Source: Streptomyces macrolidinus
Lineage (GTDB): Bacteria; Actinomycetota; Actinomycetes; Streptomycetales; Streptomycetaceae
Length of the DNA stretch: 64,000 bases
NCBI RefSeq assembly: GCF_023887685.1
Contig: NZ_JAMWMR010000002.1
Coordinates: 1 to 64,000 of the forward strand
Direction: 5' to 3'
Below are positions 16,656 to 21,606 of this stretch, in pieces; position 1 is the stretch's first letter; each line of letters opens with the position of its first letter. Under the pieces are notes generated by a model. It was not told the origin of the DNA. It did not search any database and worked only from the letters and a program-made list of their open reading frames with translations. Position numbers and translations under genes: made by a program.

Positions 16656-17593
16656 TCACGCCGCCGCCCGCCCTGCTCATCGCCGGTCATGGCACCCGGG
16701 ACGAGGCCGGAGCCGAGGCGTTCCGCGCCTTCGTACGGGAGTTGGGGCGCCGCCGCCCCGAACTGCCCGTCGCGGGCGGCTTCATCGAGCTGTCGCCGCC
16801 GCCGCTGGGCGAGGCGGTGACCGAGCTGGTGGAGCGCGGGGTGCGCCGCTTCGCGGCCGTACCGCTGATGCTGGTGTCCGCCGGGCACGCCAAGGGGGAC
16901 ATCCCGGCGGCGCTGGCCCGCGAGAAGGAGCGGCACCCCGGGATCTCGTACACGTACGGGCGCCCCCTCGGCCCGCACCCGGCGCTGCTGACGGTCCTGG
17001 AACGGCGGCTGGCCGACACGCTGGACCCCTCCTGGGAGCGCGGCGAGGTGACCGTCCTGCTGGTGGGCCGCGGCTCGACCGACCCGGACGCCAACGCGGA
17101 GGTGCACAAGGCCGCGCGGCTGCTGTGGGAGGGGCGCGGGTACGCGGGCGTGGAGACGGCGTTCGTGTCGCTGGCGGCGCCGGATGTGCCGAGCGGTCTG
17201 GACCGGTGTGCGCGGCTGGGCGCGCGGCGGATCGTCGTCCTGCCGTACTTCCTGTTCACGGGCGTCCTGCCGGACCGAGTGCGGCGGCAGACCGAGGAGT
17301 GGGCGGTGGCGCACCCGGACACCGAGGTGCGCTCGGCCGATGTCATCGGCCCGGAGCCGGAGTTGCTCGACCTGGTGTGGGAGCGGTACGAGGAGGCCGC
17401 GGCGGACGGGGTGCGGATGAACTGCGACGCGTGCGTGTACCGGATCGCGCTGCCCGGCTTCGAGGACAAGGTGGGCCTGCCGCAGCAGCCGCACTTCCAT
17501 CCGGACGACGAGGGCCACGGAGGTCACGGGCATGGCCATGGCGGCCACGGGCATCACCACCACGCCGGGCACAGGCACTCCCATGGACACTGA
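16652..17593 (+). CDS. CbiX-like sirohydrochlorin chelatase, His-rich tail
   Basis: The 313-residue protein carries two CbiX/SirB-like halves: LLIAGHGTRDEAGAEAFRAF with a metal-binding His, then VTVLLVGRGSTDPDANAEV. The motif VRMNCDACVYRIALPGF sits near residue 255. The last 30 residues are strongly His/Gly-rich (HGGHGHGHGGHGHHHHAGHR), which suggests metal storage or delivery. CbiX inserts cobalt (or iron or nickel in related proteins) into sirohydrochlorin. This is an early cobalt insertion step and sits oddly with the late-insertion CobN in the same operon. The GTG at 16652 overlaps the cobH stop. Confidence 0.88.
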   Translation: MITPPPALLIAGHGTRDEAGAEAFRAFVRELGRRRPELPVAGGFIELSPPPLGEAVTELVERGVRRFAAVPLMLVSAGHAKGDIPAALAREKERHPGISYTYGRPLGPHPALLTVLERRLADTLDPSWERGEVTVLLVGRGSTDPDANAEVHKAARLLWEGRGYAGVETAFVSLAAPDVPSGLDRCARLGARRIVVLPYFLFTGVLPDRVRRQTEEWAVAHPDTEVRSADVIGPEPELLDLVWERYEEAAADGVRMNCDACVYRIALPGFEDKVGLPQQPHFHPDDEGHGGHGHGHGGHGHHHHAGHRHSHGH

Positions 17594-18659
17594 GAGGGGC
17601 GACCACGACCTGCGGCACCACGGGGACGCGGAGATCCGTGACGACGGGGCGGCCCTGACGGACCTCGCGGTGAACGTCCGCGCGGGCACGCCCCCGGTGT
17701 GGCTGCGCGAGGTGATCGCCGCGTCGCTGGGCGGCCTCGCCGCGTACCCCGACGGGCGGGCCGCGCGGGCGGCGGTGGCGGCACGGCACGGGCTGCCGAC
17801 CGAGCGGGTCCTGCTGACGGCGGGCGCGGCGGAGGCGTTCGTGCTGCTCGCCCGCGCGCTGAAGGTACGCCGACCGGTCGTGGTGCACCCGCAGTTCACG
17901 GAGCCGGAGGCGGCACTGCGGGCCGCCGGGCACACGGTCGACCGGGTACTGCTGCGCCCGTCGGACGGCTTCCGCCTGGACCCGTCACTGGTCCCGGACG
18001 ACGCCGACCTGGTGGTACTGGGCAACCCGACGAACCCCACGTCCGTCCTGCACCCGGCGACCACGCTCACCGAACTGGCCCGACCGGGACGGACGTTGGT
18101 GGTGGACGAGGCGTTCATGGACGCGGTGCCGGGCGAACGCGAATCCCTGGCGCACCGAACGGACGTACCCGGCCTGGTGGTTCTGCGCAGCCTGACCAAG
18201 ACCTGGGGCCTGGCGGGCCTGCGCATCGGCTACGTCCTGGCCGCCCCCGACACGATCACCCTCCTGGAACAGGCACAACCCCTGTGGCCGGTCTCGACCC
18301 CCGCCCTCACGGCAGCGGAGGCGTGCGTGTCACCGCGGGCGTTGGCGGAGGCGGCGGAAGCGGCGGACCGGTTGGCGACAGACAGGGCGTATCTGGTGTC
18401 ACGCCTACGGGAGTTGGCGCCGCACGGCCTGACGGTGACCGAACCGGCAGAGGCCCCGTTCGTCCTCGTCCACCTGCCCGAGGCGGCAGCGCTCCGCCAC
18501 CACCTCCGAAACCTCGGCTTCGCGGTCCGCCGCGGAGACACGTTCCCGGGCCTGGACGAACAGTGGCTACGCCTGGCGGTACGGGACCGAGCGACGGTGG
18601 ACCGCTTCCTCGGGGCACTGGACCGGTCTCTCAACCTCCTGCGAGGGCAACGAGCTTGA
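17583..18659 (+). CDS. cobC: CobC-like threonine-phosphate decarboxylase
   Basis: PLP enzyme of the histidinol-phosphate aminotransferase fold. In cobalamin operons such proteins make (R)-1-amino-2-propanol phosphate from threonine phosphate for CbiB. The 358-residue protein has LAVNVRAGTPPVWLREVI, VVLGNPTNPTSVLHP, LVVDEAFMDAVPGE and the PLP-lysine region VVLRSLTKTWGLAGLRIGYV. I chose ATG 17583; a longer in-frame start at 17532 lies deep in the His-rich end of the previous gene. It overlaps the CbiX stop by 11 bases and its own end overlaps the convergent 130-aa gene by 29 bases. Substrate assigned from context. Confidence 0.82.
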   Translation: MDTERGDHDLRHHGDAEIRDDGAALTDLAVNVRAGTPPVWLREVIAASLGGLAAYPDGRAARAAVAARHGLPTERVLLTAGAAEAFVLLARALKVRRPVVVHPQFTEPEAALRAAGHTVDRVLLRPSDGFRLDPSLVPDDADLVVLGNPTNPTSVLHPATTLTELARPGRTLVVDEAFMDAVPGERESLAHRTDVPGLVVLRSLTKTWGLAGLRIGYVLAAPDTITLLEQAQPLWPVSTPALTAAEACVSPRALAEAAEAADRLATDRAYLVSRLRELAPHGLTVTEPAEAPFVLVHLPEAAALRHHLRNLGFAVRRGDTFPGLDEQWLRLAVRDRATVDRFLGALDRSLNLLRGQRA

Positions 18660-19023
18660 TGAAGACCACGTCGGGATCGACGGTGAGATCCACAACGTCG
18701 TCGAGGTCCTCGACCTGGCGCTCACCGGCCAGCATGAAGAAGCCGTTGGCGAGGAAGGCACGCTCGGCGATCTCCGCCTGACGCTCCCCGTCGATGCGGC
18801 GGGGCTCGCGGAAGCGGTAGCCGTTCACCTCGGTCTCGGCGTCGACGGGACGGACGAGGCCGTGGAAACGGTCGCTCGGGCGGGCGTTGTGCCGCGCGAC
18901 CTCCTCGTGGACCCGGAGCCTGATCAGTTCCCGTACGGTCATCCGTTCTGGCAGCCCGGCGACCTCCCACTCGGTGACCGCCTTGCCCGTCGCGGTCTCG
19001 TCCCGGAATGTCACGGTGGCCAT
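18631..19023 (-). CDS. 130-aa ubiquitin-like protein ending in Gly-Gly
   Basis: No family recognised with certainty. The N-terminus reads VTFRDETATGKAVTEWEV and then MTVRELIRLRVHEEVARHN, a strand-turn-strand-helix order like the first 35 residues of ubiquitin. Near the C-terminus FFMLAGERQVED resembles ubiquitin's LIFAGKQLED, and the last strand VFIKLVALAGG ends exactly at a Gly-Gly before the stop. About 50 residues lie between these parts. The ATG at 19023 shares one base with the stop of the DUF4132 gene (TGATG), so the pair is translationally coupled. A role as a conjugated or bound modifier is inference only. It overlaps the convergent cobC end by 29 bases. Confidence 0.7.
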   Translation of the reverse strand: MATVTFRDETATGKAVTEWEVAGLPERMTVRELIRLRVHEEVARHNARPSDRFHGLVRPVDAETEVNGYRFREPRRIDGERQAEIAERAFLANGFFMLAGERQVEDLDDVVDLTVDPDVVFIKLVALAGG

Positions 19024-21518
19024 CAGGCACCTCGCTCGATCTGGATGCGGATGGATGCGTCGGTGATCTTCGTGTCGGCGGCGAGCAGGAAGGCCTTGCT
19101 GAGGATCAGGGAGAGCCGTTCGTCCTCGAACGGCAGGAACACCTTGCCGCCGCCCTTGCCCCGTGCCGGAACGATGCACAGGTAGGCGTCGTCCGGTTCC
19201 ATCAGGATGTTGGCCGAGCCCAGGTGGATCCTGTAGGTACGCAGATCCCCGCGGACGACCAGGTAGCGGCCGTCGAGCGAACACCGGTCGGCGATCTTCA
19301 GACGCGGCAGGATCCGTTCCAGGGCGTCGCGACGGATCTCCGCACTCTCCGTCAGCGCACCGAACGTGGCCGTCCGCCAGTACCCGGCGAAGCGGTCCTC
19401 GCCCCGGTCGGTCCACTCCGGATCGGCCGCGATCGAGGTCACGCCCACGAAGAGGTCCACGTCGCGCATCGCCTCGCTGAACACCAGCGGGGGCACATCG
19501 GCGAGCGGGGTCTCCCGCCAGCGTCGGCCGTCCCGGCGCTCGAAGCGGACCTGGTCCGTCGCGGCGTACTCGGGCGCGTAGCCGCCGCCGTCGTCGTTCG
19601 CGGCGGGCTCGTGGTGGAAGCAGGCCCGCCACTCGCCGCCGCCGAGCTCGGCCCGTGCCCTCCCGTCGTAGCCACCGTCGTACCGGCCGAGGAAGTCGGC
19701 CTGCCAGCCGCGTTCCTTGAACAGCGCGTAGAGCTGCCGGTAGTGGACGATGTGGGCGGCGAACCGGTTGGAGTACGTGCCGGTCTCCTCCTCCGCCGGG
19801 GTGAGCAGGTAGATCTCCCGGAAGGCCTGTTTGAACGGCTGCCGCAGCCGCTCGCCGAGGAGCCGCTCCCGCCACGCCCCGATGTCGTCCGCCGATGCCC
19901 GGATCGGATGCCACAACCGGACGCGCTCGGACTCGCCGGGCGGCTCGGCCGTCGGTGCCACCGCGCGCCACTCGCCGTCCGCGCCCTGGAACTCCCAGAT
20001 CAGGCCGCGGACGAGGGTCCCGGTGACCGGATGGTCGCGGTAATAGCGGCGCCACTCGTCGTACGGCCACTCGTGCCCGGCCGACATCAGCGCCTCGACG
20101 CGGGTCCGCTCACTCGACAGCGTTCCCCGTACCTCCTTGGCCAGGGCCTTCAACTCCCGCAGTTCGTCGGGGAAGCCGTCCTTCACCGCCGCCGGGGCCG
20201 TGCGGGACGTCTTCCCGTCGGGGCGGGTGAAGGTGAGCCGTACAGTCGACGCTTCCTCGATCGCCACCCGTACCCGGTGTTCGCCCAACTCCCGTTCCAG
20301 CGAACCGTCCCGCGCCAGGCCGTGGTCCGGCACGCTGCGCTCGATGAGCTGCTCCGCCGTGATGCCCTGCTTCCCGGCCGCCGTCACCAGCGCGGTGTCG
20401 AGCTGCTTGCGCAGCGCCCGGTGTCTGATCCGCGCTTGCAGCCGCCACAGAGTCTCCAGCGCGGCCGGGTCGTCGGTCTCGGCCAGCGCGTTGATCGCCG
20501 CGCCCGCGAGCTTGAGGTCCTCGACCACGTCGGCTCCGGGGCCGCTGGTGCGCAGGGCGAGCGCGCCGAGGTGCTGTACGGCGGTCGGACCGCCGACCAG
20601 TGTGCCCGCCCAGACGGCACCGCGCGCCAGGTCTCCGTCGTTCTGGTGGACGAGGTAGTGGTAGTGGTATTCGTCGGAGCCCCAGGCGACGGACGGGCCG
20701 CTCTCCTGGCTGCACAGCGGGTCGTCCTCGGCCAGCGCGCGCAGGATCTCGGCCACCGACTCGCGCGCGGACGCGGCGTCCACGAGCGTGCGGCACGTCT
20801 GCCGCCAACGCCGCGAGGGGCGCGGCGCCGACAGACCCGCCAAGTGCCGGACGAGGTCGGCCAGTTCCGGGGTCGGCGACGTGCTCGCGCGGTCCCGCAG
20901 CGGGGCGGCCCAAGGGGCGGGCGGGATCAGCCCCTCGGGGAGGTACGCCTCGTCCACACTCGCGAGCAGCGCACGGAGGCGTTTGGCCACCGGCCCACGC
21001 TGGTATGCGGGAACGTCGTGGCTCATGAGCTTCGCGTGAGCACGCCGCAGCAAGAGCGCGACCGCACGGCAACCATCGACGTCGAGCCGCTCGGCGGCGG
21101 TCAGCGCCAATCCCAGGGAATCGGCGGACCAGAAGTCCATTTCGCTGTCGAGTTCGGTGACGCGGAGCAGCATCACCGCGACCTCGTCCGGTGTCCAGGT
21201 GTGCACCCGTGAGATCACGGCCTTGGTCGACTCGTCGAAGCGGGAGGCCAGCGTCAGGCACAGGGCCGCGGCCCTGCTCTCCTCCTCCGAGCAGGCCGCG
21301 AGCCGCCCGTCGATCTCGGCCCAGGTCGCCGCGCGTATCGCCTCTATTCGCAGGTACTCCCCAGGCCCCCGCAACGCCGCGGCGGCATCCCACGAAGGAA
21401 CCATCCGCTGACGTTCCAAGAGATCGACGAGCCAGCGGGCACGATCGAGCGCGGCGCACCGCACGTCGTCGAGCGAGTCGTTCCTACGGGAGTCGGCCAC
21501 CAAGGCGTCGTACAACAT
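19023..21518 (-). CDS. DUF4132 domain protein
   Basis: An 831-residue protein, predicted soluble, of the DUF4132 (MolR/YehI-like) family. The N-terminal 350 residues are mostly helical, with repeated Leu/Ala patterns that could form an alpha-solenoid. The DUF4132 core lies around residues 490-660 and includes WPYDEWRRYYRDHPVTGTLV, PFKQAFREIYLLTPAEEETG and YSNRFAAHIVHYRQLYALFK. The C-terminal domain ends with RLSLILSKAFLLAADTKITD, seen in many such proteins. No enzyme motif or adenylation loop is visible. No strong ribosome site precedes ATG 21518. It is the first gene of a coupled pair with the 130-aa ubiquitin-like protein. Function unknown; many family members are longer, so the N-terminus may be shortened. 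Confidence 0.85.
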   Translation of the reverse strand: MLYDALVADSRRNDSLDDVRCAALDRARWLVDLLERQRMVPSWDAAAALRGPGEYLRIEAIRAATWAEIDGRLAACSEEESRAAALCLTLASRFDESTKAVISRVHTWTPDEVAVMLLRVTELDSEMDFWSADSLGLALTAAERLDVDGCRAVALLLRRAHAKLMSHDVPAYQRGPVAKRLRALLASVDEAYLPEGLIPPAPWAAPLRDRASTSPTPELADLVRHLAGLSAPRPSRRWRQTCRTLVDAASARESVAEILRALAEDDPLCSQESGPSVAWGSDEYHYHYLVHQNDGDLARGAVWAGTLVGGPTAVQHLGALALRTSGPGADVVEDLKLAGAAINALAETDDPAALETLWRLQARIRHRALRKQLDTALVTAAGKQGITAEQLIERSVPDHGLARDGSLERELGEHRVRVAIEEASTVRLTFTRPDGKTSRTAPAAVKDGFPDELRELKALAKEVRGTLSSERTRVEALMSAGHEWPYDEWRRYYRDHPVTGTLVRGLIWEFQGADGEWRAVAPTAEPPGESERVRLWHPIRASADDIGAWRERLLGERLRQPFKQAFREIYLLTPAEEETGTYSNRFAAHIVHYRQLYALFKERGWQADFLGRYDGGYDGRARAELGGGEWRACFHHEPAANDDGGGYAPEYAATDQVRFERRDGRRWRETPLADVPPLVFSEAMRDVDLFVGVTSIAADPEWTDRGEDRFAGYWRTATFGALTESAEIRRDALERILPRLKIADRCSLDGRYLVVRGDLRTYRIHLGSANILMEPDDAYLCIVPARGKGGGKVFLPFEDERLSLILSKAFLLAADTKITDASIRIQIERGA

Positions 21519-21606
21519 GGCGGGATGATGGCAGGGGGGACTGACAATGTGGTCAAGTCGCAGGTTGCCGACGCCTGTTCACGGCCTCGGTCCGGTGATC
21601 CGAAGC

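Follow-up and report, generated by a model that had tools for sequence, protein, structure and literature searches.

Type II CBASS and the BIL/Bub operons are compact operons with a ubiquitin-like fold and a GG-type end, and in the acceptor/synthase model of MoaD it is MoaE that takes the small protein. A further candidate for comparison is DR_A0165 (SEP068184) of Deinococcus radiodurans, which is encoded next to DRA0166. According to the accessible portions of PMC8533742, DRA0165 has an RDRM at -83 and is a member of the DdrO regulon. Depletion of DdrO strongly induces the DRA0165-DRA0166 operon, tagged DRA0166 becomes more abundant following mitomycin C treatment and depends on IrrE in doing so, and the role of the pair is stated as undiscovered. 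In the accessible portions of PMC9650054, DR_A0165 is described as a Deinococcus-specific stress peptide with a MoaD-like predicted fold, induced by radiation and peroxide and reported as having no RDRM; the word "ubiquitin" occurs 0 times in the text of that paper.

We analyzed a stretch of 64,000 nucleotides of Streptomyces macrolidinus DNA (the window), in which a predicted ubiquitin-like protein of 130 aa (Ubl) is encoded beside a DUF4132-DUF7737 protein (the partner); the D. radiodurans counterpart of this pair is DRA0165-DRA0166. The initial annotation of the window, made from the sequence alone, had known of no description of this family, which was nearly right: the Deinococcus member has been published, although not as a ubiquitin-like protein. 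Literature searches, which covered sources other than bioRxiv and most subscription papers, found no link between DUF4132 or DRA0165 and a ubiquitin-like protein and no mention of DUF5724. Term searches for DUF4132 and DRA0165 in the accessible text of two surveys of beta-grasp proteins (PMC1779556 and PMC1949818) were likewise without result.

The Ubl gene and its predicted fold

The following features of the Ubl gene were defined in the window.

18631-19023, minus strand: Ubl coding sequence including the stop, 130 aa (from the ORF, its relatives, the predicted fold and dN/dS)
18634-18654, minus strand: C-terminal tail of Ubl, residues 124-130, LVALAGG (from conservation and pLDDT)
18634-18639, minus strand: Gly-Gly codons of Ubl

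The ORF runs from an ATG at 19023 to a stop at 18633-18631, and the final residues of its product are VFIKLVALAGG. All residue stretches quoted in the initial annotation were present in this 130-aa product. The ORF is a real gene, because named genomes yielded 357 relatives (of which the best 80 were kept for comparison), because its comparison with the G016 orthologue (L002) gave a dN of 0.11 and a dS of 0.36, and because its start codon shares bases with the stop codon of the DUF4132 gene that precedes it (TGATG). On the opposite strand lies a putative aminotransferase ORF (17532-18659, plus strand), which, from names assigned by reading, appears to be the final gene in a cobalamin-type cluster; its 3' end and that of the Ubl gene have 29 bases in common (18631-18659), in a convergent overlap.

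An AlphaFold model of Ubl, built with 81 aligned sequences, had a mean pLDDT of 90.3 and a pTM of 0.85. The model consists of strands at residues 2-9 and 15-24, connected by the "TATGK" turn, a helix at residues 30-47, into which the stretch MTVRELIRLRV runs, an insert with a small hairpin and a helix (79-91), strands at 95-99 (within FFMLAG), 110-112 and 118-123 (within VFIKLV), and a disordered tail at 126-130. The by-eye alignment with ubiquitin on which the initial annotation relied was consistent with this predicted structure, and the insert of about 50 residues that it described was located at about residues 48-94.

A Foldseek search of solved structures gave a chain of an EapH1 complex as the top match of Ubl (E 3e-3), followed mostly by SUMO, ubiquitin and NEDD8 at E values of about 0.01-0.1. 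The top match in VIA-align was MoaD (5mpo_B; Z 7.5, rmsd 3.7, 80/84 residues), and further neighbours were ubiquitin-like domains, SAMP1 (Z 6.5), Urm1 (Z 6.1) and SUMO/ubiquitin (Z about 6); Z was below 8 for all matches of Ubl, a value that by itself is not decisive. Going by their titles, many of the 50 VIA-align rows were ubiquitin-like or MoaD-like, and coverage was nearly complete for the best of the small domains. The neighbours listed for the Deinococcus member in 2022 in the accessible part of PMC9650054 include 5MPO, 3PO0, 1VJK, 6JBZ and 6JC0, and these five recurred in the list for Ubl. Ubl is confidently modelled with a ubiquitin-like beta-grasp fold, and the proposal of such a fold in the initial annotation is supported at the level of structure prediction and fold search.

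At the sequence level, Ubl showed no significant match to ThiS or ubiquitin, and no match was obtained in Pfam, NCBIfam or PDB sequences; Urm1 compared at E 0.92. Pfam returned 0 families for Ubl itself and seven weak families across the 81 members, ThiS not among them. Because the sequence resemblance is insignificant, the ubiquitin-likeness of Ubl rests on the predicted structure together with the conservation of the tail. Identity with Pup was rejected, since Pup is an intrinsically disordered protein, as stated in the accessible part of PMC3511204, and the Ubl model is folded (pLDDT 90.3).

The Gly-Gly tail and the DUF4132-DUF7737 partner

Residues 126-130 of Ubl had a pLDDT below 50, yet L127, G129 and G130 were invariant in the 81 sequences. 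A tail that is predicted to be disordered and is nevertheless among the most conserved parts of the protein is characteristic of a functional terminus. The GG was the very end of the protein in 80/80 kept orthologues (the best 80 of 357), as LVGG in 59 and LAGG in 21. The orthologues were retrieved with two patterns, one N-terminal and one spanning the tail; a GG end was found in each of the 43 kept orthologues that match the N-terminal pattern alone. A separate search for relatives matched Ubl in 15/100 genomes, and the GG end was found in 14/14 readable genes from 13 genomes after removal of a false row (G060; E 1.3e-4, in a frame opposite a polyketide-synthase-like ORF). One broken Ubl copy beside a partner fragment (G007) was left out of this count. 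Among 14 divergent members, the penultimate Gly was conserved in 14/14 and the last Gly in 13/14, and the mean column entropy was 1.88 bits.

The features of the partner gene were defined as follows.

19023-21518, minus strand: partner, 831 aa, with a helical-repeat N-terminus, DUF4132 and DUF7737 (from a domain search)
19704-20216, minus strand: DUF4132 (PF13569), partner residues 435-605
19038-19343, minus strand: DUF7737 (PF24879), partner residues 726-827, which tracks the GG end
19176-19178, minus strand: codon of partner Cys781 (in YLCIVP), a candidate functional residue, invariant in 50 aligned partners

Besides Cys781, His765 of the partner was invariant in the alignment. A search with the whole partner model matched mostly helical repeats, such as those of CAND1/2, and barely probed the residues beyond about 400; the DUF7737 part of the model was weak. 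The link with DUF4132 drawn in the initial annotation was borne out, as a DUF4132 gene was present at 72 of the 80 Ubl loci (best 80 of 357 relatives). It stood directly upstream at 45 loci, directly downstream at 23, overlapping or adjacent at one (L078) and nearby on the other strand at three, and was absent from the locus stretch at eight. The genomes of six of these eight were searchable, and 6/6 had a DUF4132 match elsewhere. The most frequent other neighbour family, among the 25 of 92 families listed, matched 3/63 ORFs. Many Streptomyces and Actinomadura loci (L032-L077, for example L062 and L063) carry two to three tandem DUF4132 genes before Ubl; S. macrolidinus has one there, and the second DUF4132 protein of its genome is without DUF7737.

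The distribution of the GG end and DUF7737 was compared in 396 Actinomycetota genomes. The Ubl family search matched 20 of them before two weak rows were dropped (G424 and G441; E 0.003 and 0.007, both unrelated ORFs). DUF7737 was present in 10/396 genomes, and 10/10 had a Ubl copy ending in GG, one of which has an internal deletion and one an in-frame stop; DUF7737 was present in 0/14 control genomes. The in-frame TGA of the G482 copy (L115) may be a sequence error or a sign of decay. Eight GG-less homologues were found among the 396 genomes, and the genomes carrying them had DUF4132 in 0/8 cases and also lacked DUF7737. In f40, an actinobacterial family of genomes, a Ubl homologue was present in 18/35 genomes. 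The sole genome of this family with DUF7737 (G193) has a copy ending in GG, and the other 17, without DUF7737, yielded 16 readable C-termini, of which 0/16 had GG (L192 was left out because its C-terminus was unreadable). Six listed GG-less homologues of f40 (L133-L142) stand among unrelated genes.

Against a strict rule coupling GG to the partner, the genome of G046 gave no DUF4132 match and yet encodes an intact GG copy. A remnant of the partner, covering its last 56 residues, is present beside this copy (L025 9908-10093), and the loss of the partner is apparently recent. In G041, a GG copy is found together with DUF4132 on other contigs. These data show that the GG end and DUF7737 are tightly linked in Actinomycetota, over few independent events, since the genomes share ancestry and the copies lacking GG seem to form a single lineage.

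Outside Actinomycetota, a tblastn search with the partner against plasmid records matched 34 records. Eight of these (H1, H2, H3, H6, H7, H9, H10 and H11) were opened, chosen because the match reached the C-terminus; H1 was left out of the analysis after opening, and H4 and H5 (further Acetobacter) stayed outside the comparison. Four Deinococcus records had the Ubl-partner arrangement, with a 134-aa ORF ending in LTALAGG located 2 bp before the partner (one of the four ORFs is annotated with a later start), and the Deinococcus Ubl matched the S. macrolidinus family in hhalign at E 6e-9. In Novosphingobium humi, Ubl stands beside the partner and ends in LTPLKGG, and in Bacteroides finegoldii it stands beside a partner with DUF7737 and ends in LSGRLW, with no GG. 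No ubiquitin-like gene was found near the partner in an Acetobacter record. The partner gene adjoins Ubl in four phyla. The partners of D. radiodurans (L176 2212-7092) and Bacteroides (L177 2113-7173) consist of DUF5724, DUF4132 and DUF7737, DUF5724 being an extra N-terminal domain. Viral contigs yielded no relatives of Ubl in two pattern scans, and the partner was without a match in phage records, and a viral or phage origin of the pair was thus rejected.

The initial annotation had treated an invariant Gly-Gly as a sign of the proposed function and homologues lacking it as evidence to the contrary. Invariance held in the 80 kept orthologues (of 357) and the 14 readable relatives, and it did not extend to the whole family, since GG-less homologues exist, namely the 16 readable f40 copies without DUF7737 and the one in Bacteroides. 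The actinobacterial losses of GG coincide with the absence of the partner, whereas the Bacteroides loss does not.

Damage-type promoter sites and candidate enzymes

The region upstream of the partner gene contains one further feature.

21525-21547, minus strand: RecA-NDp-like site TTGTCAGTC-N8-CATCAT, 29 bp before the partner ATG (from a pattern match)

This site deviates at two positions from what we take to be the RecA-NDp consensus, the letters used for scoring, and represents a degenerate version of it. In the L003-type Streptomyces loci, 11/11 of those scored had [TA]TGTCAGTG-N8-TANNNT, positioned 29-36 bp upstream of where the Ubl match begins. RecA-NDp-like sites were found in 31/73 upstream stretches against 47/4320 random stretches, and the fixed-spacing pattern in 22/42 and 7/35 against 41/7700; this enrichment is only indicative, because many gene starts are estimated and the random stretches are mostly coding, and the loci bearing the promoter, being relatives, are not independent. 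The first pattern (TTGTCRGTG, one mismatch) had been found at 6/35 loci with the Ubl gene first; the pattern was changed after this first test, and the [TC]A variant was added after the S. macrolidinus site had been seen. L116, from another family, had no RecA-NDp-like site. By eye, the 23 bases of the L007 site, 30 bp upstream of the ATG, differ at one base from those just preceding the start of SCO6735. This macrodomain gene is induced by UV and is described with a RecA-NDp promoter in the accessible part of PMC5087735. We infer from the surrounding text that the primer sequence in that paper covers the promoter. This likeness hints that the pair and ADP-ribosylation genes may belong to a common damage regulon.

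In Deinococcus, an RDRM-like motif was found upstream of DR_A0165 (L176 1725-1741), in agreement with PMC8533742 and in contradiction to PMC9650054, and the motif was present in 3/4 Deinococcus loci (L176 and two of the three further ones). Judged from such upstream sites, the Ubl-partner pair is apparently under DNA-damage control.

A full-length ThiF match was present in 16/16 genomes carrying the module, with scores of 262-292 bits, and the S. macrolidinus match is a MoeZ-type protein of 406 aa with ThiF and rhodanese domains. No ThiF match was seen beside the module in any of the 16 genomes; the matches lay on other contigs or about 141 kb and more away (nearest in G059), some modules in this check being on contigs shorter than 12 kb. 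An E1 within the Ubl operon was accordingly not seen in these 16 genomes. One Prok-JAB protein is encoded in the S. macrolidinus genome. Among the control genomes, ThiF was matched in 12/14 and Prok-JAB in 8/14; the presence of either therefore says little, and the ThiF match of the module genomes is taken as a housekeeping enzyme. Of the genes that the initial annotation had proposed to look for in the same genomes, E1-like ones thus occur in all 16, none seen beside the module, and a JAB-like one in S. macrolidinus; both kinds are common. A role as a known defence system was also rejected, as PADLOC gave no match for the S. macrolidinus pair or L003, and a match of a distant member at E 0.011 was taken as chance.

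Possible roles of the pair and comparison with known systems

The explanation that we tentatively prefer, at close to even chances, is that Ubl is a stress-induced ubiquitin-like carrier or modifier whose GG is charged by the housekeeping MoeZ-type E1 and which is used by the DUF4132-DUF7737 partner. In this two-gene module, induced by stress, Ubl would be the smaller component, with the free Gly-Gly as its working end, and the DUF4132-DUF7737 protein would be its dedicated partner. The MoeZ-type E1 (ThiF and rhodanese) would adenylate the C-terminal Gly in trans and so form a thiocarboxylate or thioester. Charged Ubl could then be taken over by the DUF7737 part of the partner, either as an acceptor or synthase, like MoaE with MoaD, or as a ligase passing it to targets. 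The predicted fold, the conserved disordered tail, the link of GG to DUF7737, the full-length ThiF matches and the promoter sites speak for this explanation. Against it stand the wide occurrence of ThiF and Prok-JAB, the location of every ThiF match away from the module, the infrequency of even the most frequent neighbour family, the GG-less Bacteroides copy beside a DUF7737 partner, the Acetobacter partner, the GG copy of G046, the co-purification of one protein set with both tagged forms of DR_A0165, the lack of a significant sequence match to ThiS or ubiquitin, and the shared ancestry behind the GG/DUF7737 comparisons. A bolder proposal, which we regard as rather unlikely, is that the pair represents an unrecognised damage-induced ubiquitin-like conjugation or transfer system in at least four phyla, with DUF7737 and its invariant Cys as a new acceptor or ligase that combines E2 and E3.

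The main rival, a serious possibility that explains nearly as much as charging of the GG, is a non-covalent subunit, the GG tail of which docks in a pocket of DUF7737 and is conserved for its shape, neither activation nor transfer being involved. Such docking would account for the coupling between GG and DUF7737, for the lack of an E1 beside the module and for the non-GG end in Bacteroides, and the overlap of the two genes suggests coupled synthesis of both subunits. However, a docking tail need not stop at GG, yet the 80/80 kept orthologues, the four Deinococcus members and the one from Novosphingobium do so, and a full-length E1-like match was present in 16/16 module genomes, though such enzymes are common.

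It is improbable that Ubl is a general modifier, conjugated through its GG to many proteins after damage in the manner of SAMPs and Urm1, with the partner as ligase. SAMP1 and Urm1 were among its fold neighbours, a JAB-type protein is encoded in the S. macrolidinus genome, and the accessible part of PMC9650054 reports 157 proteins co-purifying with DR_A0165. These 157 proteins, however, were common to the N- and C-tagged forms, so that the contacts seem not to need a free C-terminus, and this result makes covalent modification of many proteins less likely. The same part of the paper reports no conjugates of DR_A0165, though it gives no sign that its authors looked for them.

Even less probable is a species-specific redox regulator that binds thioredoxin, as proposed for DR_A0165, and is unrelated to ubiquitin-like chemistry. 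Binding of Trx1 in a pull-down and the higher peroxide survival of the D. radiodurans deletion strain, both reported in the accessible part of PMC9650054, would fit this proposal, but the protein is not Deinococcus-specific, given its hhalign match to the actinobacterial family, and the same partner gene adjoins it in four phyla. A chance resemblance, in which an unremarkable small protein with a different fold happens to end in GG, is hardly credible: the missing Pfam, NCBIfam and PDB sequence matches, the Foldseek values of 3e-3 or worse led by the EapH1 complex and the VIA-align Z values below 8 would allow it, whereas the confident model (pLDDT 90.3), the many ubiquitin-like or MoaD-like rows among the 50, the best small ones covered nearly whole, and the same neighbours listed independently for the Deinococcus member in 2022 (PMC9650054, accessible part) speak against it.

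The present analysis connects a ubiquitin-like protein with DUF4132-DUF7737, an orphan pair of domains, and charging of the Gly-Gly, the preferred explanation, offers a testable function for the damage-induced DRA0165-DRA0166 operon, the role of which was reported as unknown. The pair also provides a two-gene bacterial setting for asking how a ubiquitin-like tail is read, and a sharp prediction follows from the joint presence and joint absence of the GG end and the partner in Actinomycetota.

Among known systems, MoaD/ThiS, SAMP1 and Urm1 are like Ubl in the beta-grasp fold (predicted for Ubl), in the free C-terminal Gly-Gly and in the MoeZ-type E1 present in the S. macrolidinus genome. Unlike MoaD/ThiS, Ubl has an insert of about 50 residues between the helix and the third strand and no Pfam ThiS match, and its adjacent partner is a DUF4132-DUF7737 protein rather than MoaE or ThiG. 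In contrast to type II CBASS and the BIL/Bub operons, the Ubl operon is without an E1 and without a PADLOC match, and its regulation appears to be of the damage type rather than the defence type. The E. coli DUF4132 proteins MolR and YehI share the DUF4132 core of the partner but are without the DUF7737 C-terminus. DR_A0165/SEP068184 shares the fold neighbours, the GG tail and the DUF4132 partner (DRA0166) with Ubl, and differs in its published description as Deinococcus-specific and without an RDRM (PMC9650054, accessible part). Seen beside these systems, and judged from its predicted structure, Ubl may be a relative of the ubiquitin system that has escaped notice.
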